11,868 nt of DNA. It comes from an uncultured Lachnospiraceae bacterium. Lineage in GTDB: Bacteria > Bacillota > Clostridia > Lachnospirales > Lachnospiraceae. The stretch spans positions 1 through 11,868 of the forward strand of contig CACZNZ010000219.1 of NCBI GenBank assembly GCA_902782625.1. Direction: 5' to 3'. Below, piece after piece: positions 1 through 11,868 of the stretch (positions within the stretch are counted from its first letter, which is position 1; the number at the start of each line of letters is the position of its first letter). The translations under genes were made by a program, and so were the position numbers. The notes beneath the pieces are model-generated. The model saw only the letters and a list, made by a program, of their open reading frames with translations, had not been told where the DNA came from and searched no databases.

Positions 1-209
1 CCATATGCTGAGCGTTCTGGAGGGCCTGAAAATAATGCTTTCCGAGAAAAGCTGAACACGAATCATAAAAAGGAGGAATCCATACAGTTTACTGTGAACA
101 TACTACCGCGGCAAACTATGAAGCTTATCTGCATTACTGCGAAAAATATGGAGAGATCCAGGACTGTCTCATTACGATGTGTGGCGCAGGGCTTAAGTCA
201 GACCACTAG
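1..209 (+). pseudogene. Possible broken coding remnant at window edge
   Basis: Two plus-strand frames each look protein-like over part of this stretch. The frame starting at base 1 is open to about 115 and reads a hydrophilic, gene-like segment (SGGPENNAFREKLNTNHKKE, then SIQFTVNILPRQ). The frame at 69-209 reads VYCEHTTAANYEAYLHYCEK and onward to CGAGLKSDH, ending at the TAG at 207-209. Neither continues sensibly where the other begins, which suggests a frameshift or a junction near 85-115. The first segment resembles a small uncharacterised Lachnospiraceae protein family, but that is memory and not a search. The last 17 bases overlap the 3' end of the convergent phosphatase gene. The two parts may also belong to different genes, or be chance open frames. 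The 5' part lies outside the window. Confidence 0.3.
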
Positions 210-879
210 AAGTCCCTCTGCCGACCTGACAATATTCCAGGATCTGATCATTTTCTATGACTAAAGCCGTCAGCTTACCATTATAAACACAGCCTGTATC
301 AATCGCGATATCATTCCCATCGTTCAGCCACTGTGGAGTGTCTCCATCTCCCAGAAACATCGTCGGGGTATGGCCGAAGATAACTTTTTTCACATACGCC
401 CGAGAATCAAGATAAAACTCCTGCCTGGCCCAAAGAAGCGTAACATCGCTCTGCTGGGCCATCGGCAGATCCTTGTCAACCCCTGCATGAACATAGATGA
501 AATAATCATCCTCAAAATATAGGGGCAGACTCTCCATCCACAACATATCATTATAAAAATCTTCTTTACATTCTCTATAGGATCTTATGGTATCCATATA
601 GCCATTATAAAGCCAGTCCTCTCCTTCATAGTTCATATATTTGAGCAACATATCTTCATGGTTGCCTTTTAGAGCAATCACATTTTCACCGTACATTTCC
701 TGCAGCTGCCTGACATAGCTGACCACCAGCCTTGGATTATCTCCACGGTCAATATAGTCTCCGATAAAAATGAGTCTGTCCGTTTCCGGCTTGTATTTCC
801 CCTCTTTTTTAAGGCACAAAATCATCATTTCCAACTCTTTGAAACAGCCATGGATATCACCGATTACTATTGTCTTCAT
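193..879 (-). CDS. Metallophosphatase of the Ser/Thr protein phosphatase / ApaH-PrpE type
   Basis: A 228-residue cytosolic calcineurin-like phosphoesterase with the full set of metal-binding motifs: GDIHG (7-11, Asp8 and His10), GDYIDRG (40-46), GNHED (72-76), His131 in VHAGV and the GH pair at 169-170. Residues 194-203 (DTGCVYNGKL) form the conserved final block. The family uses two metal ions to cleave phosphate esters. Bacterial members act on phosphoproteins or on dinucleoside polyphosphates such as Ap4A, and this sequence alone does not decide between them. No signal peptide or membrane helix is visible. The ATG at 877-879 is preceded by an AGAGAGGAAA purine stretch at good distance, which supports this start. 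The gene is transcribed away from the MATE gene and is probably a single unit. Its 3' end overlaps a degraded convergent frame. The -10-like TATAAT boxes on this strand at 1065-1070 and 930-935 both lack a good -35 box. Confidence 0.9.
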   Translation of the reverse strand: MKTIVIGDIHGCFKELEMMILCLKKEGKYKPETDRLIFIGDYIDRGDNPRLVVSYVRQLQEMYGENVIALKGNHEDMLLKYMNYEGEDWLYNGYMDTIRSYRECKEDFYNDMLWMESLPLYFEDDYFIYVHAGVDKDLPMAQQSDVTLLWARQEFYLDSRAYVKKVIFGHTPTMFLGDGDTPQWLNDGNDIAIDTGCVYNGKLTALVIENDQILEYCQVGRGTSSGLT

Positions 880-943
880 AAACCATTTCCTCTCTCTTTC
901 CTGAAATAACTGATTGATTTGATGCCCTGATTATATCCGAAGG

Positions 944-993
944 AGGACCTGATATCTGCTACTGGCGGTAGCATTCTCATTGTTGCAGGTCCT
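944..993. other. Nested inverted repeats, possible RNA structure
   Basis: AGGACCTG (944-951) is the exact reverse complement of CAGGTCCT (986-993). Inside it, TGCTAC (957-962) and GTAGCA (968-973) form a second exact stem with a 5-base loop. This gives a closed two-level fold on either strand. On the minus strand it would sit in the phosphatase leader if transcription starts near 1058. On the plus strand it lies upstream of the MATE promoter candidate. No T-run follows on either side, so it is not a simple terminator. It matches no riboswitch class that I can recall. Confidence 0.4.
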
Positions 994-1040
994 GTCACTT
1001 CGTCATCTGATTCAATTTCATAAATCTGTTTTACCTGTGC

Positions 1041-1069
1041 TTGCTATGTTCCATTTTTTATTTTATTAT
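1041..1069 (+). promoter_or_regulatory. Candidate sigma-A promoter for the MATE gene
   Basis: TTGCTA (1041-1046, four of six matches to TTGACA), a 17-base spacer and TATTAT (1064-1069, five of six matches to TATAAT) predict a start near 1076 and a leader of about 168 bases carrying the hairpin at 1133-1180. The region is AT-rich, so a chance match is possible. The same bases read TATAAT on the other strand (1065-1070). Confidence 0.45.
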
Positions 1070-1132
1070 ATCGTAAAAGCACAAAAAAAGGAATTCAAAT
1101 AAGCAGGAACAGTACCCTGTAATATGAGGGGT

Positions 1133-1180
1133 TTGAGTAGACAAAACATTTCGGACCGCTTTACGGCGAAAGTTTCTCAA
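1133..1180 (+). other. Long interrupted hairpin in the MATE 5' leader
   Basis: Four stem segments pair in register: TTGAG (1133-1137) with CTCAA (1176-1180), AAAC (1144-1147) with GTTT (1172-1175), TTTCG (1149-1153) with CGAAA (1167-1171), and CCG (1156-1158) with CGG (1164-1166). The loop is CTTTA (1159-1163). Small bulges (A1148, GA 1154-1155) and one larger one on the left (1138-1143) interrupt the stem. No T-run follows, so it is not a plain terminator. It ends about 63 bases before the MATE start, where a leader control element or small-molecule sensor could sit. I cannot assign it to a known riboswitch class. Confidence 0.45.
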
Positions 1181-1243
1181 GAAGGAATATTCGCAGGCTT
1201 TATGAATACTGCTTCACGGAGATAAAGAAAGAATATAAACACC

Positions 1244-2581
1244 ATGTATGATAACAAAAGTCTTGCTAAACTGCTCTTGCCATTAATCATTGAGCAATTA
1301 CTCATCGTTTTCGTGGGGATGGCCGATGTCCTCATGGTGGCTACCCTTGGGGAAGCTGCCGTTTCCGGAGTGTCCCTTGTAGATGCCATCAACAATCTGA
1401 TCCTGCAGGTCCTCTTTGCCATGACTGCCGGTGGAACAGTCATATGTGCCCAGTTCATCGGCAAAAAGGATGACCGGAAAGCATCCAAGGTAGGTGGACA
1501 GCTATTTTTTATTACCGTAGTCTCTATGGTCATCATATCCTTACTGCTGCTGTTTGGAAATCATGCGATTCTATCACTGATCTTCGGACAGGTTGAATCG
1601 AGTGTGATGGATAATGCTGTCCTCTATATGGCTCTGACTGCGATCTCCTTCCCTTTCCTGGCAATCTATCACTCCAGTGCCGCCGTCTTCCGGGCAATGG
1701 GAAATACCAAGATATCCATGTACATGTCTCTCCTGATGAATGTACTGAACATCTCAGGAAATGCGATCTGCATCTTTGGATTAAAAATGGGGGTCATGGG
1801 TGTCGGTATCCCCACTGCTCTATCCAGAATGATTGCTGCCATTATTATTCTGGCTTTACTCCAGAACAAAAAGAATCCTTTGCGGATCTTACGCTTGCAT
1901 GACCTTCTTCCGGACGGAGGCCTCCTGAAAAAAATCCTCGCGATTGGAATCCCCAATAGTGTGGAGAGTGCCATCTTCCAGTTTGGCAAACTGATCCTGC
2001 AGAGTCTGGTTTCTACGCTTGGAACCCCCTCCATTGCAGCCTTTGCAGTAGCCTCTAATCTGGTCACATACTTATACCTTCCTGGCAACGCATTGGGTGC
2101 CGGCATGCTCACCATCGTGGGGCAGTGCTATGGGGCAGGAGAATACAGCCAGGCAAGGTACTACGCCAAAAAGCTGGTCATCATCAATTATGCCATGGTA
2201 TCTTTCCTGTCCACGATTTTGATTGTGGGAAGGTCCTTCTTTGTGAGCTGTTACCAATTAACCGGCTTATCGGCCTCCCTGGCCTCCGGTCTTGTCCTTG
2301 CCCATTCCATCGCCATGATCCTCTGGCCGGTGGCCTTTCTGCTGCCTTATTATTACCGGGCCATTGGCAGGGCTGCTTTTACCATGGTCGTTGCCATCGT
2401 CACTATGTGGCTCTTCCGGGTAGGTCTTGCCTGGATATTTATCAAAGTACTCCATAAAAATGTACTTTGGATCTGGTATGCTATGTTTGTAGACTGGATA
2501 TTCAGAGTGATTATCTATGTCGCAGCTTTTCAGGATAAACCTGGCAAAAAATCCGACAGATCTTCTACGTCAACGACCTGA
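1244..2581 (+). CDS. MATE-family multidrug/cation antiporter
   Basis: A 445-residue polytopic membrane protein of the usual MATE length, with two homologous halves (about 8-205 and 225-428) and roughly 12 hydrophobic helices. Family-like stretches include the first helix with EQLL and GMADVLMV (17-32), GEAAVSGVSLVD (36-47) and the second-half GAGMLTIVGQCYGAG (285-299). MATE proteins export cationic drugs, toxins or metabolites using Na+ or H+ gradients; the substrate cannot be told here. The ATG start fits the usual N-terminus of the family, but the ribosome site is weak (AAAGAAAG about 13 bases upstream, GGAG 22 upstream), and a TAA at 1223-1225 closes the frame upstream. From about Gln430 the last 15 residues (DKPGKKSDRSSTSTT) are polar and lie wholly antisense to the DUF523 gene, so the native stop may have been lost. 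A candidate promoter and a leader hairpin precede the gene. Confidence 0.93.
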   Translation: MYDNKSLAKLLLPLIIEQLLIVFVGMADVLMVATLGEAAVSGVSLVDAINNLILQVLFAMTAGGTVICAQFIGKKDDRKASKVGGQLFFITVVSMVIISLLLLFGNHAILSLIFGQVESSVMDNAVLYMALTAISFPFLAIYHSSAAVFRAMGNTKISMYMSLLMNVLNISGNAICIFGLKMGVMGVGIPTALSRMIAAIIILALLQNKKNPLRILRLHDLLPDGGLLKKILAIGIPNSVESAIFQFGKLILQSLVSTLGTPSIAAFAVASNLVTYLYLPGNALGAGMLTIVGQCYGAGEYSQARYYAKKLVIINYAMVSFLSTILIVGRSFFVSCYQLTGLSASLASGLVLAHSIAMILWPVAFLLPYYYRAIGRAAFTMVVAIVTMWLFRVGLAWIFIKVLHKNVLWIWYAMFVDWIFRVIIYVAAFQDKPGKKSDRSSTSTT

Positions 2582-2970
2582 AACCCATTCTTGATCAGTA
2601 GCTGTGCAGTCACGCCCGCACCTTCCAAAAGCGCACCTGAAAATGTGCCATCATACCGTTGCTTTACTCCGCAGCTTGGACTGCGTGACTGCAGCACGAT
2701 CAGATCCGGTCTTTCGCGCCTGGCTATCTCCAGGCACTTTGCTGCGCCCAAACGGAATTCCTTATCCACATTCCGGCCGTCTTTGGTCATAACTACGCCG
2801 TTACAGATTTCAGACGGTATTCGTGGCGTTGGCAGACCGCCCATCTGTTCCGGACAGACGGTAATCACTTCATGTTCAGCTATCAGCTGAAGGACATTCT
2901 CATTCTGATTGTTCCCACCGTTATATTTACAATTCTTTCCTGCAAGGCAGGCACTTACCATGATCTTCAT
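2530..2970 (-). CDS. DUF523 / TudS-like [4Fe-4S] protein
   Basis: A 146-residue protein of full family length. It shows the DUF523 hallmarks: SACLAGKNCKYNG at 6-18, CPEQMGGLPTPR at 39-50, and SPSCG at 98-101. Cys8, Cys39 and Cys100 are the conserved residues expected to hold an iron-sulfur cluster; Cys14 is also present. Characterised family members (TudS) remove sulfur from thiouracil or thiouridine, so a role in salvage or repair of thiolated bases is possible, though most members are untested. The ATG at 2968-2970 has GGAAGG nine bases upstream. The gene starts inside the 3' end of the glycerate kinase gene (44-base overlap), which suggests translational coupling. At its own 3' end it overlaps the convergent MATE gene by 52 bases, and no terminator is visible between them. 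Confidence 0.88.
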   Translation of the reverse strand: MKIMVSACLAGKNCKYNGGNNQNENVLQLIAEHEVITVCPEQMGGLPTPRIPSEICNGVVMTKDGRNVDKEFRLGAAKCLEIARRERPDLIVLQSRSPSCGVKQRYDGTFSGALLEGAGVTAQLLIKNGFQVVDVEDLSDFLPGLS

Positions 2971-4135
2971 AGGACTCAGCCTTCCGTATTCGATTTTTTA
3001 TCCACATTCTGATCAGGCGAAATACCTGTTCAACGGATGCCGCCATGTTCTTTTTAGCATTCTCAGACTCCATCGCTTCCTGAATGGTTACCGCTCCTCT
3101 GACGATGGGGAAGAACGCATCGATTCCGGCTTGATTGCAAAGAACCGCATCTTCTGTGACACAGCCGGCAAATGCCAATACCGGTTTGTTGTATTTCTTC
3201 GCAATACGGGCAACGCCGATTGGAGCCTTTCCCATAACAGTCTGCCCGTCCAGACGGCCTTCCCCTGTAATGACGATATCAGCATCTTTAATATGATCCT
3301 CTAATCTGGTTTCCTCCAGGATGATGTCAATCCCTGGTTCAAGCTTCGCATTGGTAAATGTAAGAAATGCAAATCCCATCCCTCCTGCAGCACCAGCGCC
3401 TTCATGGGCCGGATCCGCTTTGGGATAAGTCTCTTTTGCGAGGTCTGCATAATCCGAAAGCCATCCGTCCATCTGTAGAATCATTGCAGGTGTAGCGCCC
3501 TTCTGTGGTCCGTAAACAACACTGCAGCCTTTGTCACCACAAAGTGGATTTGTCACGTCACAGGCAATCCTGAAACTGCATTCATCCAGTTCCTTAAGCA
3601 CCTGTTCCTTTGTGATAGCTGCCAGATCTTTAAGTCCTTTTGCTCCAAAAGCAATCTGGCTGCCGTTCTCATCGAGGAAACCATAGCCCAGGGCCTGTAA
3701 CATACCAACGCCGCCGTCGTTTGTCGCACTGCCGCCAATTCCTATAATAAAATGTCGACAACCTTTCCGGATAGCATCTTTGATCACTTCCCCCACCCCG
3801 TAGGTGGTGGTTTTCATGGGATCCCGTTCCTGTTCGGGGACAAGGGTGATTCCGGCGGCTCCTGCCATTTCTATAATCGCCGTCTTCGTCTCCTCGATAA
3901 TCCCATATATACATTCCACCGGTTTTCCTATAGGTCCTGTGACCACAACCTTTTCTGAACGCCCATTCATACCAAGTGTCAGTGCTTCTACGGTACCTTC
4001 TCCGCCATCAGCCAAAGGCCGGACGATGACTTCTGTGTCGGAGGATGCATTCTGAATTCCATCCTTGATTGCATTTCCTGCCTCAAGAGAGGTCAGGCTT
4101 CCTTTTAAGGAATCTATTGCTACTACTACTTTCAT
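2927..4135 (-). CDS. Glycerate kinase (GarK/GlxK type)
   Basis: A 402-residue cytosolic kinase of the glycerate kinase type 1 family, which phosphorylates D-glycerate with ATP and feeds it into lower glycolysis. Family motifs are all present: AIDSLKGSL (6-14), PLADGGEGT (40-48), MAGAAG (90-95), IGIGGSATNDGG (131-142), CDVTNPLCG (192-200), GAGAAGGMG (246-254) and ITGEGRLDGQT (289-299). The ATG at 4133-4135 has AAAGGA about eight bases upstream. Family members usually end near residue 380. Here about 20 extra residues follow, the last 15 read out of frame through the DUF523 start, so the C-terminus looks extended. The gene leads a two-gene unit with DUF523. A TATAAT box with an extended TG motif lies about 35 bases upstream. 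Confidence 0.94.
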   Translation of the reverse strand: MKVVVAIDSLKGSLTSLEAGNAIKDGIQNASSDTEVIVRPLADGGEGTVEALTLGMNGRSEKVVVTGPIGKPVECIYGIIEETKTAIIEMAGAAGITLVPEQERDPMKTTTYGVGEVIKDAIRKGCRHFIIGIGGSATNDGGVGMLQALGYGFLDENGSQIAFGAKGLKDLAAITKEQVLKELDECSFRIACDVTNPLCGDKGCSVVYGPQKGATPAMILQMDGWLSDYADLAKETYPKADPAHEGAGAAGGMGFAFLTFTNAKLEPGIDIILEETRLEDHIKDADIVITGEGRLDGQTVMGKAPIGVARIAKKYNKPVLAFAGCVTEDAVLCNQAGIDAFFPIVRGAVTIQEAMESENAKKNMAASVEQVFRLIRMWIKNRIRKAESYEDHGKCLPCRKEL

Positions 4136-4168
4136 CTCATTTTCCTTTCATTGTATTTTACTGTAATC

Positions 4169-4197
4169 ATTATAACAGTACTCCTCATAAAAATCGA
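4169..4197 (-). promoter_or_regulatory. Extended -10 promoter for glycerate kinase
   Basis: On the minus strand TGTTATAAT (TATAAT at 4169-4174) gives a perfect -10 with the extended TG. At 17 bases the -35 is TCGATT (4192-4197), matching three of six positions, which an extended -10 tolerates. Transcription would start near 4162, giving a leader of about 27 bases before the ATG at 4135. Confidence 0.6.
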
Positions 4198-4241
4198 CTA
4201 CGTAACATACACGGTCAAAACAAATTCTTCCCGTATTTCTG

Positions 4242-4270
4242 TTCCCATATTAGGATATCTATATTATAAT
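4242..4270 (+). promoter_or_regulatory. Candidate promoter for the zinc-ribbon operon
   Basis: TTCCCA (4242-4247, four of six), a 17-base spacer and a perfect TATAAT (4265-4270) predict a start near 4277. The roughly 114-base leader would carry both copies of the GGGGACGGTTCT repeat. The palindrome found before the NRPS-like gene is absent here, so MarR does not seem to control its own operon through that site. Confidence 0.55.
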
Positions 4271-4287
4271 AAAAGCAACAAGACATA

Positions 4288-4325
4288 TCAGGGGACGGTT
4301 CTCTGATCAATCAGGGGACGGTTCT
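4288..4325. repeat. Direct pair of TCAGGGGACGGTTCT repeats
   Basis: TCAGGGGACGGTTCT occurs at 4288-4302 and again at 4311-4325, start to start 23 bases. Between them CTGAT (4303-4307) and ATCAG (4310-4314) form a small palindrome. GGGGACGGTTCT repeats are familiar from intergenic regions of many Clostridia, where similar sequences are linked to transposase-associated REP-like elements. No transposase is present here, so this is at most a remnant or a dispersed repeat copy. It lies in the predicted leader of the zinc-ribbon operon. Confidence 0.65.
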
Positions 4326-4390
4326 TTCTGGTGTTTCCCGAAACCAGCCACTGACAAAATGGATTTTGGTGGCTCAGAAAGGAGGATCCT

Positions 4391-5137
4391 ATGCTTCATT
4401 CTTTCACGCGAAATTATAATGATTTGTCAACTGATGCTGGATTCCAGTTTGAATTTTATTGTGACTGCTGTGGAAATGGCTTTAAGAGTTCTTTCAAAAA
4501 ATCCAGCACCTATGGTCAGAAACAGAAATCCCAGAAGGTCGGGAAGTTTGCCTCTACCCTGGGTGGTCTTTTTGGAGGCAAGGTCAGCGACCTCGGCTAT
4601 GCTTTGGAACGTGGCAGTGATTTTATCAGCGACCGTTTAGGTGAGCAGACTCTAGAATGGCGGCGGGAACAGGAACTTTCATTTGATGCGGCTCAGGCCG
4701 AAGTCCGTCCTCTTTTCAAGAAATGTCCTGCCTGCAACCAATGGGTCTGCAGCGACTGCTGGAATGAAGATGACGGTCTTTGCATCACCTGTGCACCCCG
4801 TGAGGCAAGCTATGTAGCACAGGCCCGCAACCAGGCTATGCGCCGTAACATCGATGAGGCTGCAGAGACAGCTACTGTCTGGCAGGGCAAGCTTGAGACA
4901 AGAACCACCGTTTGTCCTAATTGCGGCAAACCTGCCGGCACCGGCAAATTCTGCAATCACTGTGGTGCCCCCCTGGGAACCCAGCGCTGTCCAAACTGTG
5001 GTGCCGAAGTTGCTCTTGGACTGAAATTCTGTGGAGAATGCGGCTCCCCCATGGAAAAATCGGGCAAATGTCCGTCCTGCGGCTACGAGAACGAACCGGG
5101 GATGAAATTCTGCGGCAACTGCGGCAATAAACTTTGA
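4391..5137 (+). CDS. Multi-zinc-ribbon protein
   Basis: A 248-residue protein with up to five metal-binding clusters. The first is a short CDCC set (Cys24, 26, 27). A central block has Cys112, 115, 120, 123, 131 and 134 (CPAC, CSDC, CITC). Three C-terminal zinc ribbons pair CPNCG/FCNHCG (175-191), CPNCG/FCGECG (200-217) and CPSCG/FCGNCG (227-244). A glycine-rich stretch with helical character lies at about 50-90. There is no signal peptide or clear membrane helix. Tandem ribbons of this kind bind partner proteins or nucleic acid; no catalytic motif is seen. The ATG is preceded by AAAGGAGG six bases away, a near-perfect ribosome site. It is the first gene of an operon and its TGA overlaps the possible TTG start of the next gene. 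I recognise the domain type but not the protein's role. Confidence 0.88.
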   Translation: MLHSFTRNYNDLSTDAGFQFEFYCDCCGNGFKSSFKKSSTYGQKQKSQKVGKFASTLGGLFGGKVSDLGYALERGSDFISDRLGEQTLEWRREQELSFDAAQAEVRPLFKKCPACNQWVCSDCWNEDDGLCITCAPREASYVAQARNQAMRRNIDEAAETATVWQGKLETRTTVCPNCGKPAGTGKFCNHCGAPLGTQRCPNCGAEVALGLKFCGECGSPMEKSGKCPSCGYENEPGMKFCGNCGNKL

Positions 5138-6117
5138 AGCACATCAGGTATCATTTTATGAAATACAAGGGATGTATCAACGGCCAAGACACCGAATTGT
5201 CCATCGAAACAGAAGGCCTCAGAACAGGAGTGCAATATATCGATTTTTCGGACGTAGCAGGACTGCGTCCCATAAACCACCGGGTCTACATAGACCTGAT
5301 GAATAAAGAGACTCACGAAGTTTCCATGCTCGGCCGTTCTTATGACGGATTCTTTGAGGAGCTGACCGCTTCCTTTAACCAAAGAAGTCTGGACGCTCTG
5401 TTTGTAGAAGAAGAACAGGTTATGCTGTGCGAAGGAGAATATGTCATGCCCGGGGAAGCCGGCCGCGGCCGGCTGGCTCTCTATCCTGACGCCATCTGCA
5501 TCCTTCCCCAGACAAACCGTGCCCTGCGGATCCCCCTTTGTTTTACGCAGGCCCTTCGTCTCGAAGGCTATCATCTCCACATTCTCATGGACACCGGCCT
5601 GCAGTATACCATCGGGAAAATGGGCTACGATACCAAGCCATTTGCCGAGAGGGCTCAGATCCTTCGCGAACGCACCACGAAAAACCGCCAGGCAGCCAGC
5701 CGGAAGCTTCCTCTGCATGAACCTTTTACCTGCTGCGGGCTCTTCCGGACCAGGGACCCCGACCATTACTGGAATGCAGCTTTCGGGAGAAATGTTCCGG
5801 AAGACACAAACGTCTGCGCTGTCGAACTATACACGGATGAAGATACCGCTACTTATTTATATCAATTCAAAGAAAACCCTGAAGTTTTCAGGCAGCAGCT
5901 GGCCAGAGCCATGGAGGCCGTAGGAATCCACCGCGAGATCATCTATATGAACGATGAGCAACTGCAGGACAGACCGCTCTACCGCATGGCCATAGATCGA
6001 TCCACCGCCGTACAATTCTTACGTGCCCGATCAGCCGGCCGTCTCATCCATAGCAGCAGTCATGCCACAAAACTAAAAGAATTCCTGGGGCAGTCATCTT
6101 GTAAAGACAAGGAATGA
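5134..6117 (+). CDS. Unrecognised 327-residue cytosolic protein
   Basis: Not recognised by motif. The first half (to about residue 180) alternates short polar and hydrophobic stretches, such as YIDFSDVAGL, RVYIDLMN and GRLALYPDAICILP, in a way that suggests two beta-rich, possibly PH-like domains. The second half is more mixed and helical and ends in a polar tail with a Cys near the end. No signal peptide, membrane helix or nucleotide-binding motif is visible. The frame opens with TTG (5134-5136) overlapping the preceding stop; an in-frame ATG at 5158 (MKYKGCING) is an equally likely start, and neither has a strong ribosome site. The stop overlaps the first possible ATG of the MarR gene. Its sandwich position in the operon ties it to the zinc-ribbon and MarR proteins. 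An 18-base palindrome lies inside it (5457-5474). Confidence 0.8.
   Translation: MKHIRYHFMKYKGCINGQDTELSIETEGLRTGVQYIDFSDVAGLRPINHRVYIDLMNKETHEVSMLGRSYDGFFEELTASFNQRSLDALFVEEEQVMLCEGEYVMPGEAGRGRLALYPDAICILPQTNRALRIPLCFTQALRLEGYHLHILMDTGLQYTIGKMGYDTKPFAERAQILRERTTKNRQAASRKLPLHEPFTCCGLFRTRDPDHYWNAAFGRNVPEDTNVCAVELYTDEDTATYLYQFKENPEVFRQQLARAMEAVGIHREIIYMNDEQLQDRPLYRMAIDRSTAVQFLRARSAGRLIHSSSHATKLKEFLGQSSCKDKE
5457..5474. repeat. 18-base perfect GC-rich palindrome inside a gene
   Basis: AGCCGGCCGCGGCCGGCT is identical to its own reverse complement and is almost pure G and C, unlike the surrounding bases. It encodes the in-frame residues EAGRGRLA region of the 327-residue protein, so it may be chance codon use. 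No adjacent T-run or matching second copy was seen in the window. Confidence 0.6.
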
Positions 6118-6548
6118 TAACTATGCATAATGATACAACTTACGGAGAACAACTCTATAATATCTTATTTCAGATTGTGGGAAATAAGAAAAACGCCAGT
6201 CTGATCGAAAGCCTTCGAGGGGAAAATGCTGTGTTGACATATCTGGTGCGCCATCCTACGGAGGTTCACCCAGGTGAACTGGCCCAAAAGCTGTCTCTTG
6301 TTCCCGGACGGATGACAGATATTCTGAAGACACTGGAAAAAAAGGGCATGATCCGCAGAGAAAAAGATCCGGAAGACCGCAGACGGGTGCTTGTAAAGAT
6401 CACTCCGAAAGGAATCCGCAATGTGACTGAACGACGGGAACAGATTCGGTTACAGTACAGCGGCCTCTATGAGGCATTGGGACTGGAGGACACTGTAAGG
6501 CTGATCGATCTGCTCAAAAGAGTGAATCAATACTTTGATGAGATGTAA
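6114..6548 (+). CDS. MarR-family transcriptional regulator
   Basis: A winged-helix regulator of typical MarR size (144 residues from 6114, 141 from 6123). The recognition helix region is about 55-78 (GELAQKLSLVPGRMTDILKT) and the wing carries DPEDRRRVLVKITPKG (85-100), the most conserved MarR block. Flanking helices form the expected dimer interface. MarR proteins bind palindromic operators as dimers and usually release DNA on binding a small ligand. The first ATG (6114) overlaps the previous stop as ATGA, but AAGGA sits only one or two bases before it; the ATG at 6123 (MHNDTTYG) has about nine bases spacing and is the better start. It is the last gene of its operon and is followed by a hairpin terminator. 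Two identical palindromes just downstream, at the NRPS-like promoter, are its likely targets. Confidence 0.93.
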   Translation: MITMHNDTTYGEQLYNILFQIVGNKKNASLIESLRGENAVLTYLVRHPTEVHPGELAQKLSLVPGRMTDILKTLEKKGMIRREKDPEDRRRVLVKITPKGIRNVTERREQIRLQYSGLYEALGLEDTVRLIDLLKRVNQYFDEM

Positions 6549-6568
6549 TCATACATATTCGTTCAATG

Positions 6569-6625
6569 AAATAGAGAGGAAAGAGTCTCAAAAGCGAGGC
6601 TCTTTCCTCTCTATTTGTGCATTTT
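6569..6625 (+). terminator. Hairpin terminator after the MarR gene
   Basis: AAATAGAGAGGAAAGAG (6569-6585) is exactly complementary to 6600-6616, a 17-base perfect stem, with CTC/GAG pairs extending it inside the loop. The following T-run is split (TTT at 6614-6616, TTTTT at 6621-6625), so on this strand it is a good but not textbook terminator. The A-rich left arm gives some U-rich character on the other strand as well. Confidence 0.8.
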
Positions 6626-6662
6626 TCGTAAAGATAAAGGACGGATATCTAAAAATTTGTAT

Positions 6663-6683
6663 ATATTTCGCATTGCGAAATAT
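6663..6683. promoter_or_regulatory. Palindromic operator 1 (likely MarR site)
   Basis: ATTTCGCATTGCGAAAT (6665-6681) is a perfect palindrome about a central T, and symmetry extends two more bases on each side. It overlaps the -35 box of the NRPS-like promoter (6673-6678). A bound dimer here would block RNA polymerase. The identical 17 bases recur at 6720-6736, with centres 55 bases apart, close to five helical turns. Confidence 0.8.
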
Positions 6684-6701
6684 CTAGGTGCATGCTATAC
6701 T
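6673..6701 (+). promoter_or_regulatory. Promoter of the NRPS-like gene
   Basis: TTGCGA (6673-6678, four of six), a 17-base spacer and TATACT (6696-6701) with an extended TG (TGCTATACT) form a strong sigma-A promoter. Transcription should begin near 6708, about 73 bases before the ATG. The -35 lies inside operator 1 and operator 2 lies just after the start point, the arrangement of a repressed promoter. Confidence 0.72.
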
Positions 6702-6718
6702 CGGTACAGTTGAAAATA

Positions 6719-6737
6719 TATTTCGCATTGCGAAATA
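6719..6737. promoter_or_regulatory. Palindromic operator 2 (likely MarR site)
   Basis: The second exact copy of ATTTCGCATTGCGAAAT is at 6720-6736, with one further symmetric base pair on each side. It lies about 12-28 bases after the predicted transcription start, a position where bound protein would block early elongation. It differs from operator 1 only outside the shared core. Confidence 0.8.
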
Positions 6738-6780
6738 ATGTATCTGTAAAGTAGAAAGATCAGACAAGGAGTAGATAAAT

Positions 6781-9700
6781 ATGATTACAAAAGATAACAT
6801 TCACACCCTGGGTGATTTGCTGGAAAACGCAGCCCTGGATTTTGAGAACCAGGTTTTCGTCCGATATGAGAAAGACGGCATTATCTATGAAAAGGGGTAT
6901 CGCACCTTCGCCATGGACACCAGAGCTGTTGTACACTGGGCAGCAAACAAAAGCGGGGAATTTGAGAAAAAGATTCATGTGGCAATGATCGGCAAATGCA
7001 GCTATGAGTATCTCACAGTGCTTATGGGCGTCGCAGCATCCGGTAATATTGCAATCCCTCTGGACACTCAGCTGAGCAAAGAGGCGTTCATTGAGAATCT
7101 GGAAAGAGCAGAGGCAGATATTCTCTTCTTTGATTATGAGTATCTGAGTGAGGCAGAGTACCTTCTTGAGAAATGCAGCTGTCTGAAAGAGATCATCTGT
7201 ATCCAGCAGCGCAGACGTCATTTTTCAACGCCTCAGATCCACAGAGAATTCCGAGTGCCTGCTTTTGACTATCTGGCAGAACCTTCAGACTGTGCACTCA
7301 TTGTTTTTACATCCGGCACGACCGGCCATGGAAAAGGTGCCATGCTCTCGCATGCGAACCTCCTGGACAATCTGTTCAGTTCGGATGATGCAAGGGAGAC
7401 CTGCCTGAGTATTCTTCCGATCCACCACGTGTTCTGCATCAGTGGGGATCTTCTGCTGACCCTCCGTTACGGAAGTACGCTGTGTCTGTGTGATGATGTC
7501 TCTAAATTCCTGTATTATATCGACCTGTATCAGCCTACCATGATGCGTATCGTCCCCATGATGGCCAAAATGCTCCTGAACAGAGTGGCCATTGCATCCA
7601 AAAAACATCCTGACCAGGATCTCGAGCATCTGAAATCCCGAATCATGGGCTCCCGTCTGCACAAGATCGTCAGCGGCGGAGGTTACCTTTCCGAGACACT
7701 GGCAAGAGGTCTTGCAGACCTCGGCGTTGTGACAGCACAGGGCTACGGCATGACCGAATGTGCCCCGAAGATTGCTGCCCCGGATTACGGCAACATGGAA
7801 AAAATCGCTTCCGTCGGTAAGCCTGTACGTGGATGCCAGATCCGTTTTGTCGATGGTGAGATCCAGGTTAAAAGTCCTTCCGTTATGATGGGTTACATTA
7901 ATGATCCGGAACTTACTGCAGAAGCTCTCACAGAAGATGGCTGGCTCTGCACCGGCGACCTTGGATACATGGATGAAGATGGTTATCTGTACTTAAACGG
8001 TCGTAAAAAGAATCTGATCATCCTTAGTAACGGAGAAAATGTTTCACCCGAGCTGATTGAAAATAAATTCGACGGAGACCGCCTGATTCAGGATGTGATC
8101 GCCTTCGGTGACAGCGACAGCATTTCTGTCGAAGTATATCCTAACTATGAATATGCACAGGTTCACGGGATCCGGGATATCTCTGCCGCAGTCAATGAGA
8201 TTATCGCTCAGAGAAACGAGCAGCTGCCTTCCTATGCGAAGATTTCCGACTGCACCGTCCGGAAGACGCCTTTCCCCAAGACTTCTTCCAAGAAGATTAT
8301 CCGTAAGGTCTATTTTGATGACAAGAAAGAAAGAAGCGAAAAGAAAGAAAAGCAGCTCCGTCCGGTTACAGAACTGCAGCAGCAGCTCTACGATATTGTG
8401 GCAGCCGTCCTTGGAGAAGACTCCATCGGCACAGATGCCAACCTCTATCAGAATGGCCTAGATTCCCTGACAAGCGTTATGCTTATCGAAGAACTCCAGA
8501 CACAGCTTGATGTCGGCGTAACTTTGACTGAGCTCATGGACAACAGTACGATCCTGAAGCTGGAGGAACTGATTCTGCAAAAGCAGGGCGAAGAAAAAAT
8601 CGATTACAGCCCTCGCCCGGCTTATCCGCTTACCAGCATGATGATGTATTTTTCCTATATCATTCCGGGCAATACCACCGGCAATCTGCCATTTGCGTAT
8701 CGATTGGATAAAAATGTGGATCTTCTCCGTCTGAAAGAATCCTTCCGGACTCTGTTTGATGTACATCCGATACTTAAGGGTATCATAAAACCTACAGAAA
8801 ACAAATATTATGCCCTCTTCCGTGACGACGCAAGAGAAATGGATATCCCGATCTTCCATTGGAAGGAGGAGGATGTCGAGAAAAACATGCAGGCCATGCT
8901 CACACCTTTCCGCTATCGCCAGGACGATAATCTTGTACATATCTGTCTGGCTGAGACAGATTCCTATAAGTACATGTTCTTTGATGTGGCCCATGTCATC
9001 GGTGACGGGATCACCATGAATATTCTTATGGAAGATTTGAAAAAGATTTATGACGGAGAGGAAGTCCCGAAAGAGCATTATACTTTCTATGAGTATATTC
9101 TCGACGCCAAGGCAAAAGAAGATGCCGGCGTCCGTGAAAAAGACAGTGCGAATGTGGAAGAACTGATGAAGGATTACCGCATGCGTCAGACTGTCCTCAC
9201 ACGCCATGACAGACAGGATTGCAAGAAAGGAATCTATGGTGTCATCCGTCGCAGGTTCGATCGAATCGTCCGTAAGGAAATCCTTTACTACTGCAAAACG
9301 AACAATGTATCCGAAAACGCTCTCTTCCTGTCTGCATTCAATTACACCGCCGCTCTCTTTTCTGATGAGGATGATGTTTTTGTCAACAGTATTCACAGTG
9401 GCAGAACCGACGGTCGCTGGACAGGGCTTGCCGGCTGCCTGTTCAAGACTTACCTCTACAGATATCAGAGAGTTGCCCATGAAAAGGTCAATGAACTGGT
9501 TACCCGGGCCGGAAGTCAGATTATGTCTACCATGAAGAACTACACTCCTATATCCAGAATGGGTGATATGTTCCTTCAGTACCAGGGAGATATTCTCTCT
9601 GTACCTACCCCTGGCGATCAGCCTGGTGAGAGGCTTCACTGTCTGCAGTTGGATTCCCTTCCATTCCATATGCAGATTATGTATGACGAAGATGGATTCT

Positions 9701-10374
9701 ACACGGAACTCCGCTACTGGGAGAATCGTTTTGAAAGAGATACCCTGGAGATCTTCCTGACCTGCTATGAAGAGATCGTCCGGGCCATGATGGAAGAAAC
9801 TTCCGTACGACGTCTTAAACGTCATCTGCCTGAGGAGGTCTACCCGAAACATTTCCGCGTTTACGGTGATGTCCTTAACAAAGAAGCTGGATTCACTCTT
9901 CTTCCCAATATCTCAGGGAACAGAAGGGTCAAGGTTTACATCCTTGATGAATCCCAGCATAAGAAACCTTATGGCGCATGGGGTCCTCTTTATGTCATGG
10001 ACTGTGAGCCTTCCGTATTCCATGAAGTCATTGAGAATCCTTATGGCCCCGGTACCCTCTACGACACCGGCCTCAAAGGAAGAATCCTTCCAGACGGCAC
10101 CGTTGATTTCCTGGAGAGGACAGGCCGTGAAGTGATGACCGATGGTATCCATGGCCGCAGGTTCTTTGATCTCAACAAGGTCGAAGAAAATCTTCTTGCC
10201 TGTGAAGGAATCAAGACTGCCAAGGCATACCTGAAATACAATACTGCTGAAAATGAACTGGTTCTTTACGCAGACATTACGGCAGAAGAAGATTTTGACA
10301 AAGCTTCCTGCCTCGAAGATCTCAAACAGACTACCGCACCGGAACTCGTGCCGGTTGATCTCATAGACGCATAA
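6781..10374 (+). CDS. NRPS-like enzyme: adenylation, carrier, condensation, half adenylation domain
   Basis: A 1197-residue modular enzyme. Residues 1-510 form an adenylate-forming domain with FTSGTTGHGKGA (176-187), YGMTE (322-326), TGDLGY (391-396), the hinge region 407-427 and a catalytic-lysine block near Lys505. Its LPIHHVFC (212-219) is the acyl-CoA-synthetase style, not the FDxS of amino-acid domains, so the substrate is probably a fatty or aryl acid. After a Lys/Glu-rich linker, 530-600 is a carrier protein with Ser562 in GLDSL for phosphopantetheine. Residues 612-1015 are a condensation domain with active HVIGDG (738-743). Residues 1046-1172 resemble only the lower half of a second adenylation domain and lack the TGD Asp. 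No thioesterase, reductase or second carrier follows. AAGGAG nine bases before the ATG supports the start. A carrier-activating transferase must come from elsewhere. The gene is the sole member of its transcript and lies under two operators. Confidence 0.92.
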   Translation: MITKDNIHTLGDLLENAALDFENQVFVRYEKDGIIYEKGYRTFAMDTRAVVHWAANKSGEFEKKIHVAMIGKCSYEYLTVLMGVAASGNIAIPLDTQLSKEAFIENLERAEADILFFDYEYLSEAEYLLEKCSCLKEIICIQQRRRHFSTPQIHREFRVPAFDYLAEPSDCALIVFTSGTTGHGKGAMLSHANLLDNLFSSDDARETCLSILPIHHVFCISGDLLLTLRYGSTLCLCDDVSKFLYYIDLYQPTMMRIVPMMAKMLLNRVAIASKKHPDQDLEHLKSRIMGSRLHKIVSGGGYLSETLARGLADLGVVTAQGYGMTECAPKIAAPDYGNMEKIASVGKPVRGCQIRFVDGEIQVKSPSVMMGYINDPELTAEALTEDGWLCTGDLGYMDEDGYLYLNGRKKNLIILSNGENVSPELIENKFDGDRLIQDVIAFGDSDSISVEVYPNYEYAQVHGIRDISAAVNEIIAQRNEQLPSYAKISDCTVRKTPFPKTSSKKIIRKVYFDDKKERSEKKEKQLRPVTELQQQLYDIVAAVLGEDSIGTDANLYQNGLDSLTSVMLIEELQTQLDVGVTLTELMDNSTILKLEELILQKQGEEKIDYSPRPAYPLTSMMMYFSYIIPGNTTGNLPFAYRLDKNVDLLRLKESFRTLFDVHPILKGIIKPTENKYYALFRDDAREMDIPIFHWKEEDVEKNMQAMLTPFRYRQDDNLVHICLAETDSYKYMFFDVAHVIGDGITMNILMEDLKKIYDGEEVPKEHYTFYEYILDAKAKEDAGVREKDSANVEELMKDYRMRQTVLTRHDRQDCKKGIYGVIRRRFDRIVRKEILYYCKTNNVSENALFLSAFNYTAALFSDEDDVFVNSIHSGRTDGRWTGLAGCLFKTYLYRYQRVAHEKVNELVTRAGSQIMSTMKNYTPISRMGDMFLQYQGDILSVPTPGDQPGERLHCLQLDSLPFHMQIMYDEDGFYTELRYWENRFERDTLEIFLTCYEEIVRAMMEETSVRRLKRHLPEEVYPKHFRVYGDVLNKEAGFTLLPNISGNRRVKVYILDESQHKKPYGAWGPLYVMDCEPSVFHEVIENPYGPGTLYDTGLKGRILPDGTVDFLERTGREVMTDGIHGRRFFDLNKVEENLLACEGIKTAKAYLKYNTAENELVLYADITAEEDFDKASCLEDLKQTTAPELVPVDLIDA
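9916..10374 (+). other. Remnant lower half of an adenylation domain (C-terminal region)
   Basis: Residues about 1046-1197 of the NRPS-like protein align by eye with motifs A6 to A8 of amino-acid adenylation domains: RVKVYILDE (1049-1057), GPLYVMD (1068-1074), LYDTGLKGRILPDG (1093-1106), VDFLERTGREV (1108-1118) and a block ending KVEENLL (1133-1139). The whole nucleotide-binding core (motifs A1 to A5) is absent because only about 30 residues separate it from the condensation domain. The A7 Asp is replaced by Leu1098 and the A10 Lys is not seen, so it should not activate a substrate. A structural or docking role, or decay, are both possible. Confidence 0.6.
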
Positions 10375-10386
10375 GTCTGAAAAATC

Positions 10387-10456
10387 AATGCTGCCGCACT
10401 GATGTGATGATGTGAATTGCGCATGCTCTTCCTCATCAGCTTAGTGCGGCAGCATT
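10387..10456 (-). terminator. Terminator-like inverted repeat between convergent genes
   Basis: AATGCTGCCGCACT (10387-10400) and AGTGCGGCAGCATT (10443-10456) are exact reverse complements with a 42-base loop, in which CTGATG (10399-10404) and CATCAG (10434-10439) can also pair. On the minus strand the stem is followed by GATTTTTC, so it works as a terminator for the ATPase gene. The 10443-10456 arm is itself the last ATPase codons (PMLPH and the start of the stop). On the plus strand no T-run follows. Confidence 0.65.
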
Positions 10457-11868
10457 GGTGTCAGGCAGTCCATACTCAAAAGAATGGTAGAGCCATTGTG
10501 CAACAGGGCCGACGTAGCAGGTGACAGCAGCCCGAATGCACCCAGAGCAATCAGGCTTCCGTTGAAGCCCATGACAAACCGATAATTCCGATCGATTCGC
10601 TCCATCAGTTTTTGTGATAAATTCCGAAGCAGTACCAGTTCCCTGAGATCTTCAGCTGTAATCGTGATGTCCGCCACTTCCCGGGCAACACTGGCTCCGC
10701 TTCCGATCGCGATTCCTACATCCGCCAGAGACAGCGCCGGGGCATCGTTAATTCCGTCTCCGATCATAACAACACTCTGGCCCGCTTCCTGACTGCCGCG
10801 GATAAAAGCAGCCTTATCTTCAGGAAGCACCTCCGCCCTGTATTCGTCAATGTTTAATTCTTCTGCGATGGCTGCAGCCGTATTACGGTTATCTCCCGTA
10901 AGCATAACGACATGACTGATTCCGGCCTCATGCAGGAGGTCTACCACTTCCTTCGCTTCCGGCCGCAGAGGATCGTAGATGCCTATAGCGGCGGATAATA
11001 CGCCGCCAATCGCCAGATAAAGCCAGGAGCGGTCCGGCGTAAGATTGTCAAACACTTCCTGATCTTCAGGTAATACCATCACCTCTTCGTCTTCAAAAAC
11101 AAAATGGCGACTGCCGATAACGGCCCTTTTCCCATCGATTCGTGATGCAATTCCATGGGCTACCACATATTCTACTTCATCATGCATTTCCTGATGGTCA
11201 AGGCCCTGTTCCATGGCGGCTCTGACTACGGCATCCGCCACAGAATGAGGAAAATGTTCCTCAAGACATGCGGCTACCCGCAGCATCTCTTTTTGATCCT
11301 GGCCGTGAAAGGTCACAACATCGCATACGGTAGGACAGGCGTTGGTAAGCGTTCCTGTCTTGTCAAAGATTACAGTGTCCGCTTTACTTAACATCTCCAT
11401 GTATTTGCCACCCTTAACCGTGATCTTGTGCTGCCCGGCTTCCCGCATGGCAGAAAGAACACTTAAGGGCATGGAAAGTTTCAGGGCACAGGAAAAGTCT
11501 ACCATCAGCACCGAGACAGCTCTCGTTGCATCCCTGGTCAAAAGCCATGTCAGCGCACTTCCTCCAAGGCACCATGTCACAAGCTTATCTGCAAGATGAT
11601 AAGCACGCTTTTCGGTGCCGGATTTAAGGCGTTCGGAGTCTTCTATCATTCGAACGATACGATCGTAGCGGTTTTCGCCGGCTGTGTGCATGACACGCAC
11701 CACACAGTTTCCCTCTTCCACAACAGATCCTGCGTAAATCACTGCCCCGGAGCGTTTCGCAACCGGGACGGACTCCCCGGTCAGAGGAACCGCACAGATC
11801 CAGCCGTCTCAAAGTCCCCGGTCAGAAGGGACGCACCTATTGCAATCCCATCCAGCAGTTCTACTTGA
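10441..11868 (-). pseudogene. P1B-like cation-transporting ATPase, disrupted by internal deletion and frameshift
   Basis: The intact 3' part encodes a P-type ATPase catalytic half: LTGES (11770-11784), a membrane segment with SCALKL in the place of the usual CPC (residues 84-89 counted from the GTG at 11742), DKTGT with Asp127, the HFPHS nucleotide-domain motif (163-167), MLTGDN (280-285), MIGDGINDAP (326-335) and two C-terminal helices. Metal-type P1B ATPases pump transition metals; the unusual SCALKL leaves the ion open. Upstream the frame meets TGA at 11809-11811. A different frame (11867 to about 11784) reads DGIAIGASLLTGDFETAGSV, a recognisable earlier membrane segment of the same family, and ends at TGA 11781-11783. 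About 75-85 residues (rest of the helix, EEW-type linker, most of the actuator domain) are missing at the junction. The GTG at 11742 has no ribosome site and is not a real start. The gene continues beyond the window. A sequencing error alone would not explain the missing residues. Confidence 0.78.

Follow-up and report, generated by a model that had tools for sequence, protein, structure and literature searches.

A 1197-residue adenylation-carrier-condensation protein from an uncultured Lachnospiraceae bacterium as a probable one-protein fatty acyl amide synthetase

Which acid does a protein of the non-ribosomal peptide synthetase (NRPS) type activate, and to what does it hand that acid over, when it carries neither a release domain nor a second carrier? 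The question is raised by a gene for a 1197-residue protein in an uncultured Lachnospiraceae bacterium (assembly GCA_902782625.1, a 76%-complete genome of 2.84 Mb spread over 639 contigs). The gene lies on contig CACZNZ010000219.1 (C219), positions 1-11868 of which, 11,868 nucleotides in all, are hereafter referred to as the window. An earlier, sequence-only reading of the window had described an adenylation (A), a carrier (T) and a condensation (C) domain and had proposed that the carrier-bound acid is passed directly to a free amine or alcohol, yielding an undescribed gut metabolite. Our analysis shows that the layout of the enzyme is A-T-C-A*, where A* is a C-terminal remnant of an NRPS A domain. 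We put at roughly 60% the probability that the protein is a one-protein fatty acyl amide synthetase, the product of which would be an N-acyl amide.

Domain layout and conservation

Pfam assigns AMP-binding (residues 62-372, 8e-50), AMP-binding_C_3 (411-510), PP-binding (534-598, 4e-11) and Condensation (615-923, 2e-28) domains to the protein, and finds no thioesterase (TE), reductase or second PP-binding carrier over its whole length at E-values up to 1; the open reading frame (ORF) stops after A*, without a downstream T or TE domain. In sequence alignments with linear gramicidin synthetase, the serine of GLDS562 aligns with the carrier serine, and His738 matches the second histidine of the HHxxxDG motif, so that both residues occupy the active-site positions that had been ascribed to them. 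Of 7997 candidates scored in a protein-space search, 884 proved to be relatives at E ≤ 1e-3, and the best 120 of these, 118 of which cover at least 97% of the query (47-91% identity), were combined with the window protein into a conservation set of 121 proteins. K505, D561, S562, H738 and D742 are each kept in all 121, as is the TGD motif, with G743 present in 120 (one gap); each P-loop letter is shared by 119 or 120 proteins, the exceptions being one gap and one T181M. The complete A domain, the single carrier serine and the single condensation site reported earlier, along with the lack of a release domain, are thus borne out by Pfam, alignment and conservation. The condensation site, HVIGDG, had also been called intact, which holds for the second histidine and the DG pair but not for the first histidine of HHxxxDG, replaced by Ala in 103 and by Ser in 18 of the 121 proteins.

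The AlphaFold model of the full protein, built from an alignment of 117 rows (P0014 and P0096, which are short, and P0102 and P0120, which have long N-terminal extensions, were excluded), has a mean pLDDT of 88.7 and a pTM of 0.83. The first 12 Foldseek matches of the whole model are LgrA and DhbF, with TM-scores of 0.36-0.43 by query length.

The order of the first three domains had been read correctly from the sequence, but the tail at residues 1045-1194 had been missed. Pfam alone misses it as well (best match GP180_GOLD, E 0.1). The same residues match NRPS A domains in hhalign (E 1.3e-16) and SrfA-C in a PDB profile search (7.4e-16), and the fold of residues 1008-1197 taken alone matches A domains in Foldseek, with TM-scores of 0.31-0.46 by query length and root-mean-square deviations of 7-15 Å. 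We read the combination of low scores and high deviations in the model as probable movement between the two sub-parts of A*; in a second Foldseek look, the last ~80 residues superpose at 1.7-2.0 Å in 5 of 50 rows. A* lacks the P-loop, the substrate pocket segment and the A10 lysine and, as judged from its sequence, is the leftover of the A domain of a second module, predicted to be unable to adenylate. By analogy with the glidonin synthetase described below, its role is most likely to keep the C domain folded.

The presence of such a remnant raises the possibility that the entire protein is a non-functional relic of an NRPS in decay. Most of an A domain is gone from A*, which changes faster than the other three domains in comparison with the two nearest loci, and the first histidine of the condensation motif has given way to Ala or Ser. 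Nevertheless, K505, S562, H738 and D742 are invariant, a regulator-operator pair (see below) is associated with the gene, and constraint is seen in all four domains; even in A*, the length of which is kept, nonsynonymous distances of 0.24-0.30 compare with synonymous differences of 0.75-0.83, the synonymous distance being saturated and not computable in at least 15 of 20 comparisons. Because the catalytic residues are invariant and all four domains are constrained, a pure relic was rejected; we regard it as highly improbable.

Kinship of the adenylation and condensation domains

A scan of named genomes returned 588 loci, of which the best 80 were kept. A and C are encoded in one ORF at 64 of these, and in the window; L060 is split over two ORFs, contig ends truncate L103 and L107, and the remaining 13 loci (L113, L115-L126) encode an A protein of ~510 residues alone. 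At 12 of the 13 A-only loci, a stand-alone C protein of ~470 residues with a DHxxxDS or NHxxxDS motif lies directly upstream of the A gene; at 12, an ORF of 319-344 residues precedes the C gene (an alpha/beta hydrolase by Pfam in L119, the locus checked), and a carrier of 74-80 residues was recognised by motif at eight. The C protein of L116 matches PDB 12KH at 1.8e-110, an entry corresponding to OaaC, the enzyme for oleoyl aminovaleric acid in Coprococcus eutactus (PMC13142362). Given the gene order, the (D/N)HxxxDS motif and the match of L116 to OaaC, we take the 13 loci to be CTA operons. The founding paper on CTA operons, or fatty acid amide (FAA) synthetases, of gut Clostridia is reportedly that of Chang et al. 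2021. One of the operons, L119 (5341-10497), is preceded by the alpha/beta hydrolase gene and followed by genes for a phosphopantetheinyl transferase and an SCP2 protein. FAA systems are described in PMC13142362 as free-standing proteins whose C motif is (D/H)HxxxDS, with Ala second to Ser in frequency at the final position, and PMC13060934 reports a CTA operon of three genes from Lachnospiraceae, with higher acyl amine levels in carrier isolates of Blautia and Coprococcus.

The A domain of the window protein is 39-43% identical over ~510 residues to the A proteins of all 13 CTA loci. Fourteen fused and 12 CTA A domains unite in a single branch of a careful 44-row tree (support 100/99), and a quick tree also recovered this branch (support 91, not starred). 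A CTA-like A domain from genome G007 (L012) falls just outside this branch, its placement inside not being rejected (AU p 0.124). Genome G007, which is of the same genus as the source genome and in which the fused gene was not seen, has a CTA-like A protein adjoining a C protein with the motif DHMTADA at L038 (3547-6890, minus strand). Phylogenetically, then, the A domain of the fused protein is the sister of the CTA A domains, from which the acid activated is most likely a fatty acid; with an A domain of the fatty-acid type, an N-acyl amide would be the likeliest product.

The C domain has a different affinity. A careful 49-row tree, computed without named starter and LCL standards, included 21 reference C domains from NRPS genes, some belonging to relatives and some to other genomes holding the fused gene. 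The fused (17) and CTA (11) C domains separate in it, each with support of 100/100, and the fused ones group with four C domains that are internal to NRPSs of A-T-C-A order (97/85). In a quick tree, the fused C domains joined two domains of L039 (support 83). The motifs differ between (A/S)HxxGDG in the fused proteins and (D/H)HxxxDS in the CTA lineage. Among LCL-like features, the second histidine, the DG pair and the grouping with carrier-accepting internal C domains are present, the first histidine is replaced, and a second, acceptor carrier was not found by Pfam. Because the A domain is the sister of CTA A domains and the C domain is of another lineage, the fused protein is, on phylogenetic grounds, a chimera of FAA-type loading, a peptide-type C domain and the stub of a following A domain.

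With the CTA/FAA systems (OaaA-OaaACP-OaaC), the window protein shares the sister A domain, a single carrier and a single C domain, the lack of a second module or TE, and occurrence in gut Clostridia. Unlike those systems, which consist of three proteins with a (D/H)HxxxDS/A motif in the C component, it is one polypeptide of 1197 residues with a C domain of another lineage, (A/S)HxxGDG, and a remnant A domain, and a MarR gene with an operator is found at 14 of the fused loci. Assignment to the CTA/FAA systems was therefore rejected, the polypeptide being fused and the lineage and motif of its C domain being different. With A-T-C-A stretches of ordinary NRPSs (DhbF and LgrA; relatives at L039, L127 and L129), the protein shares domain order and C-domain kinship; it differs from them in that the second A domain is only a tail and the acceptor carrier is lacking.

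The acceptor and the competing readings

In the mechanism that we favour, the A domain would use ATP to load a carboxylic acid (most probably a fatty one) onto Ser562, as its kinship and intact motifs suggest. The C domain would then transfer the acyl group, by means of His738, to a freely diffusing small amine, and this transfer would itself free the product, with no need for a thioesterase. A*, which would not adenylate, may support the fold of the C domain, as proposed for its glidonin counterpart. A free acceptor is suggested by two lines of evidence, namely, the fused gene being the sole Pfam condensation match in 21 of the 30 genomes tested and the precedent of the glidonin C-A* arrangement. 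The genomes tested, of unstated completeness, represent 30 of the 64 named loci with the fusion, and the 21 include those of Butyribacter intestini TF01-11 and Catenibacillus scindens DSM 106146.

As described in PMC10587159, the glidonin synthetase GdnB ends in C13-A*-T13-TE, where C13 joins free putrescine to the carrier-bound chain, release is seemingly not carried out by the TE, and A* and T13 contribute to folding and stability. When purified, A12-T12-C13-A* and A12-T12-C13-A*-T13 both promoted the condensation of free putrescine with carrier-bound Ala more strongly than A12-T12 did (PMC10587159). In both systems, a C domain is followed by a partial A domain without the specificity part (the similarity in glidonin extends over 190 of 409 positions; PMC10587159), and the A12-T12-C13-A* fragment has the same domain order as the window protein. 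The glidonin enzyme differs in standing at the end of a 13-module peptide line from a Burkholderiales strain, with a peptide donor and putrescine as acceptor, and in having T13 and TE after A*, both of which are lacking here; the two were likened by description, not by sequence. VibH and SchH, amide synthases with a free amine acceptor (PMC10587159), are C-type enzymes like the window protein and use the kind of acceptor proposed for it but, unlike it, are free-standing components of siderophore pathways that use norspermidine or diaminopropane; this likeness, too, is one of description rather than sequence. The earlier proposal of direct transfer to a free amine is thus supported in part, being favoured by the CTA kinship of the A domain, by the genomes with a sole C domain and by the glidonin C-A*.

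Several observations weigh against a one-protein fatty acyl amide synthetase. In the glidonin system, A12-T12-C13-A* was unstable and T13 was needed in vivo (PMC10587159), and the window protein has no second T domain. A* has evolved two to three times faster than the A or C domain (nonsynonymous distances of 0.24-0.30 versus 0.08-0.13). From the trees, the C domain is outside the FAA C clade, so that the amine selectivity of CTA enzymes would not be transferable to it, and it matches the C protein at only four of the 13 CTA loci, at 20-24% identity. A phosphopantetheinyl transferase (PF01648) was not found in the source genome, which is 76% complete. Nine of the 30 genomes contain further C domains, and the source genome itself has a second one, in a T-C protein on contig C13. 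Finally, in the PDB sequence search with the A domain, aryl-acid ligases, feruloyl-CoA synthetase (100.5 bits) and 4-coumarate ligase (99.5), outscore the fatty acyl ligase FadD13 (70.0).

The last of these points would fit an enzyme that activates an aryl or another non-fatty carboxylic acid and releases a small aryl amide. Comparison of folds favours neither fatty acyl nor aryl ligases. The sister relationship of the A domain with CTA A domains, the broad fatty acid specificity reported for OaaA (PMC13142362) and the best NCBIfam model, a long-chain fatty acid CoA ligase scoring below the cut-off (214 of 476 bits), all argue for a fatty acid, and we hold an aryl substrate to be unlikely.

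The additional C domains bear on a different role, in which the acyl group would be passed to an amino acid on a carrier in trans, A* would be a docking remnant and the protein would be the opening half of a lipopeptide line that is split in two. The affiliation of the C domain with an internal, carrier-accepting lineage is consistent with this scenario, as is the precedent of the kutzneride A* with the stand-alone KtzN (PMC10587159). We nonetheless consider it unlikely, in view of the 21 genomes with no other C domain and of the gene neighbourhoods: among the neighbour families common to at least four of the 65 fused loci (ORFs of at least 70 residues within 4.5 kb), inspection by eye revealed no carrier or A-T gene.

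The T-C protein of the source genome (L033, 4437-5894, minus strand), which is cut by the contig end, belongs to a second NRPS type lacking a release domain; judged by eye, the products of adjoining genes resemble a radical SAM protein and a MATE transporter. In the same type, two other genomes of the same genus encode A-T-C proteins of ~1000 residues with an amino-acid-type A domain and the motif HHMVMDG (L040, 4303-7326; L041, 4756-7755).

C-type domains are also known to form esters, and the same enzyme might use an alcohol or water as acceptor, giving an ester or a product of proofreading hydrolysis. This option gains some appeal from one group of loci in which an Abhydrolase_3 protein, which may supply or remove acyl groups, is encoded beside the synthetase (five loci: L084, 3915-5552, L081, L082, L100 and L109) or is fused to its N-terminus (L114, 6438-11621, 1727 residues); the family was confirmed by Pfam for L084 and L114. 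The sister A domains, by contrast, serve amide makers, and the closest C-A* precedent, glidonin, makes an amide (PMC10587159), making an alcohol or water acceptor quite unlikely.

Regulation, distribution and significance

The dedicated regulator postulated earlier is corroborated by a MarR-family gene upstream of the synthetase gene and by two perfect copies of a palindrome between them (Table 1). A MarR homologue lies upstream of the fused gene at 14 loci, window included (13 of the 65, to which L103 was added), and at all 14 the palindrome TTTCGCA(A/T)TGCGAAA, with two mismatches at most, is found between -320 and +120 of the called start. It also occurs at L049, the contig of which starts 514 bases upstream, and was not found near the called start in the other 60 of the 75 scanned loci. 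The scan required the exact string TSGTTG, omitting six of the 81 loci (L053, L081, L082, L100, L101 and L102), and labels L060, L103 and L107 as CTA owing to short ORFs alone. Elsewhere in 1.05 Mb, six palindromes were counted and five printed, two of them (L047 and L110) beside MarR genes. Within 6540-6800, terminator-like sites number three versus 0.1 in shuffles, whereas the two promoter-like sites near the palindromes are not above chance (1.2 in shuffles). The pairing of the MarR regulator with the predicted palindromic operator is well supported by this co-occurrence, and the MarR protein probably represses the synthetase gene through the two candidate operators.

Table 1. Coordinates of the synthetase gene, its domains and the candidate regulatory features in the window
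Feature	Positions	Strand	Basis
MarR-family regulator gene, 144 residues	6114-6548	+	Pfam MarR, 1.8e-12
Terminator-like hairpin between the MarR and synthetase genes; 20-pair stem, then T run	6569-6616	+	consensus scan
Palindrome TTTCGCATTGCGAAA, probable MarR operator 1; overlaps first hexamer of promoter-like site 6673-6701	6666-6680	.	predicted
Palindrome TTTCGCATTGCGAAA, probable MarR operator 2; in spacer and start of second hexamer of promoter-like site 6710-6739	6721-6735	.	predicted
A-T-C-A* synthetase gene, 1197 residues	6781-10374	+	ORF call, ATG start
A domain, residues 1-520; TSGTTG 177-182, TGD 391-393, K505	6781-8340	+	Pfam
T domain, residues 525-605; Ser562 codon 8464-8466	8353-8595	+	Pfam PP-binding
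C domain, residues 608-1008; motif AHVIGDG; His738 codon 8992-8994	8602-9804	+	Pfam Condensation
A*, NRPS adenylation-domain tail, residues 1045-1194	9913-10362	+	hhalign, PDB profile search, fold

Just upstream of the MarR gene, the window encodes a 327-residue ORF (5134-6117) with no Pfam match over the cut-off and no NCBIfam match, directly preceded by a gene for a zinc-ribbon protein (4391-5137). At the other end (11742-11868), the frame of a heavy-metal P-type ATPase is interrupted by an in-frame stop near the contig end, which may be an assembly artefact. Across the 65 fused loci, the largest group of shared neighbours, followed by that of MarR, is ABC-transporter-like; it recurs at 19 loci, in varying place and strand, and was taken as background. 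Smaller groups of four to seven loci share MATE transporter, radical-SAM-like or alpha/beta hydrolase genes, all of these neighbours having been named by eye.

Among the best 80 loci, the nearest named relatives of the window are Lachnospiraceae assemblies. Named holders of the fused gene include Butyribacter intestini, Catenibacillus scindens, Brotaphodocola catenula, and Oribacterium and Clostridium records, and many of the assemblies with the gene are titled as coming from the rumen, caecum or colon of deer, goat or sheep, or from chicken. Matches to the fused gene, some of them partial, occur in 10 of 24 genomes of the same genus (G000, G009, G012, G014, G015 and G019-G023), and A* of the fused type in nine of 299 genomes across the family, source genome included, and in five of the 245 good ones.

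There is also an evolutionary scenario to which we give an even chance: fatty-acyl amide synthesis may have arisen twice in gut Clostridia around one fatty-acid-activating A domain, once with a free-standing (D/H)HxxxDS C protein and once through fusion of A-T to a peptide-type C domain, the following A domain having shrunk to a scaffold and the acceptor carrier having been lost. The fused form would then have its own set of acyl amides, and in one group would be under MarR control. As to the undescribed metabolite envisaged earlier, kinship with CTA operons implies that the product probably falls in a class already described, that of N-acyl amides of gut Clostridia; what may be new is the fused, one-protein form of the enzyme. 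Among the papers listed by literature searches, none describes the A-T-C-A* fusion in its title or the start of its abstract, a check that did not extend to the text of Chang et al. 2021.

Known relatives produce lipids with activity on human receptors (PMC13142362, PMC13060934). A second, single-gene form of the enzyme would, if the proposed activity is correct, constitute a further source of receptor-active amides, and one that would be easy to express. The fused enzyme would also be the natural counterpart of the artificial A-T-C-A* fragment of the glidonin synthetase and, as such, may show how a peptide-making C domain becomes a releasing amide synthase.

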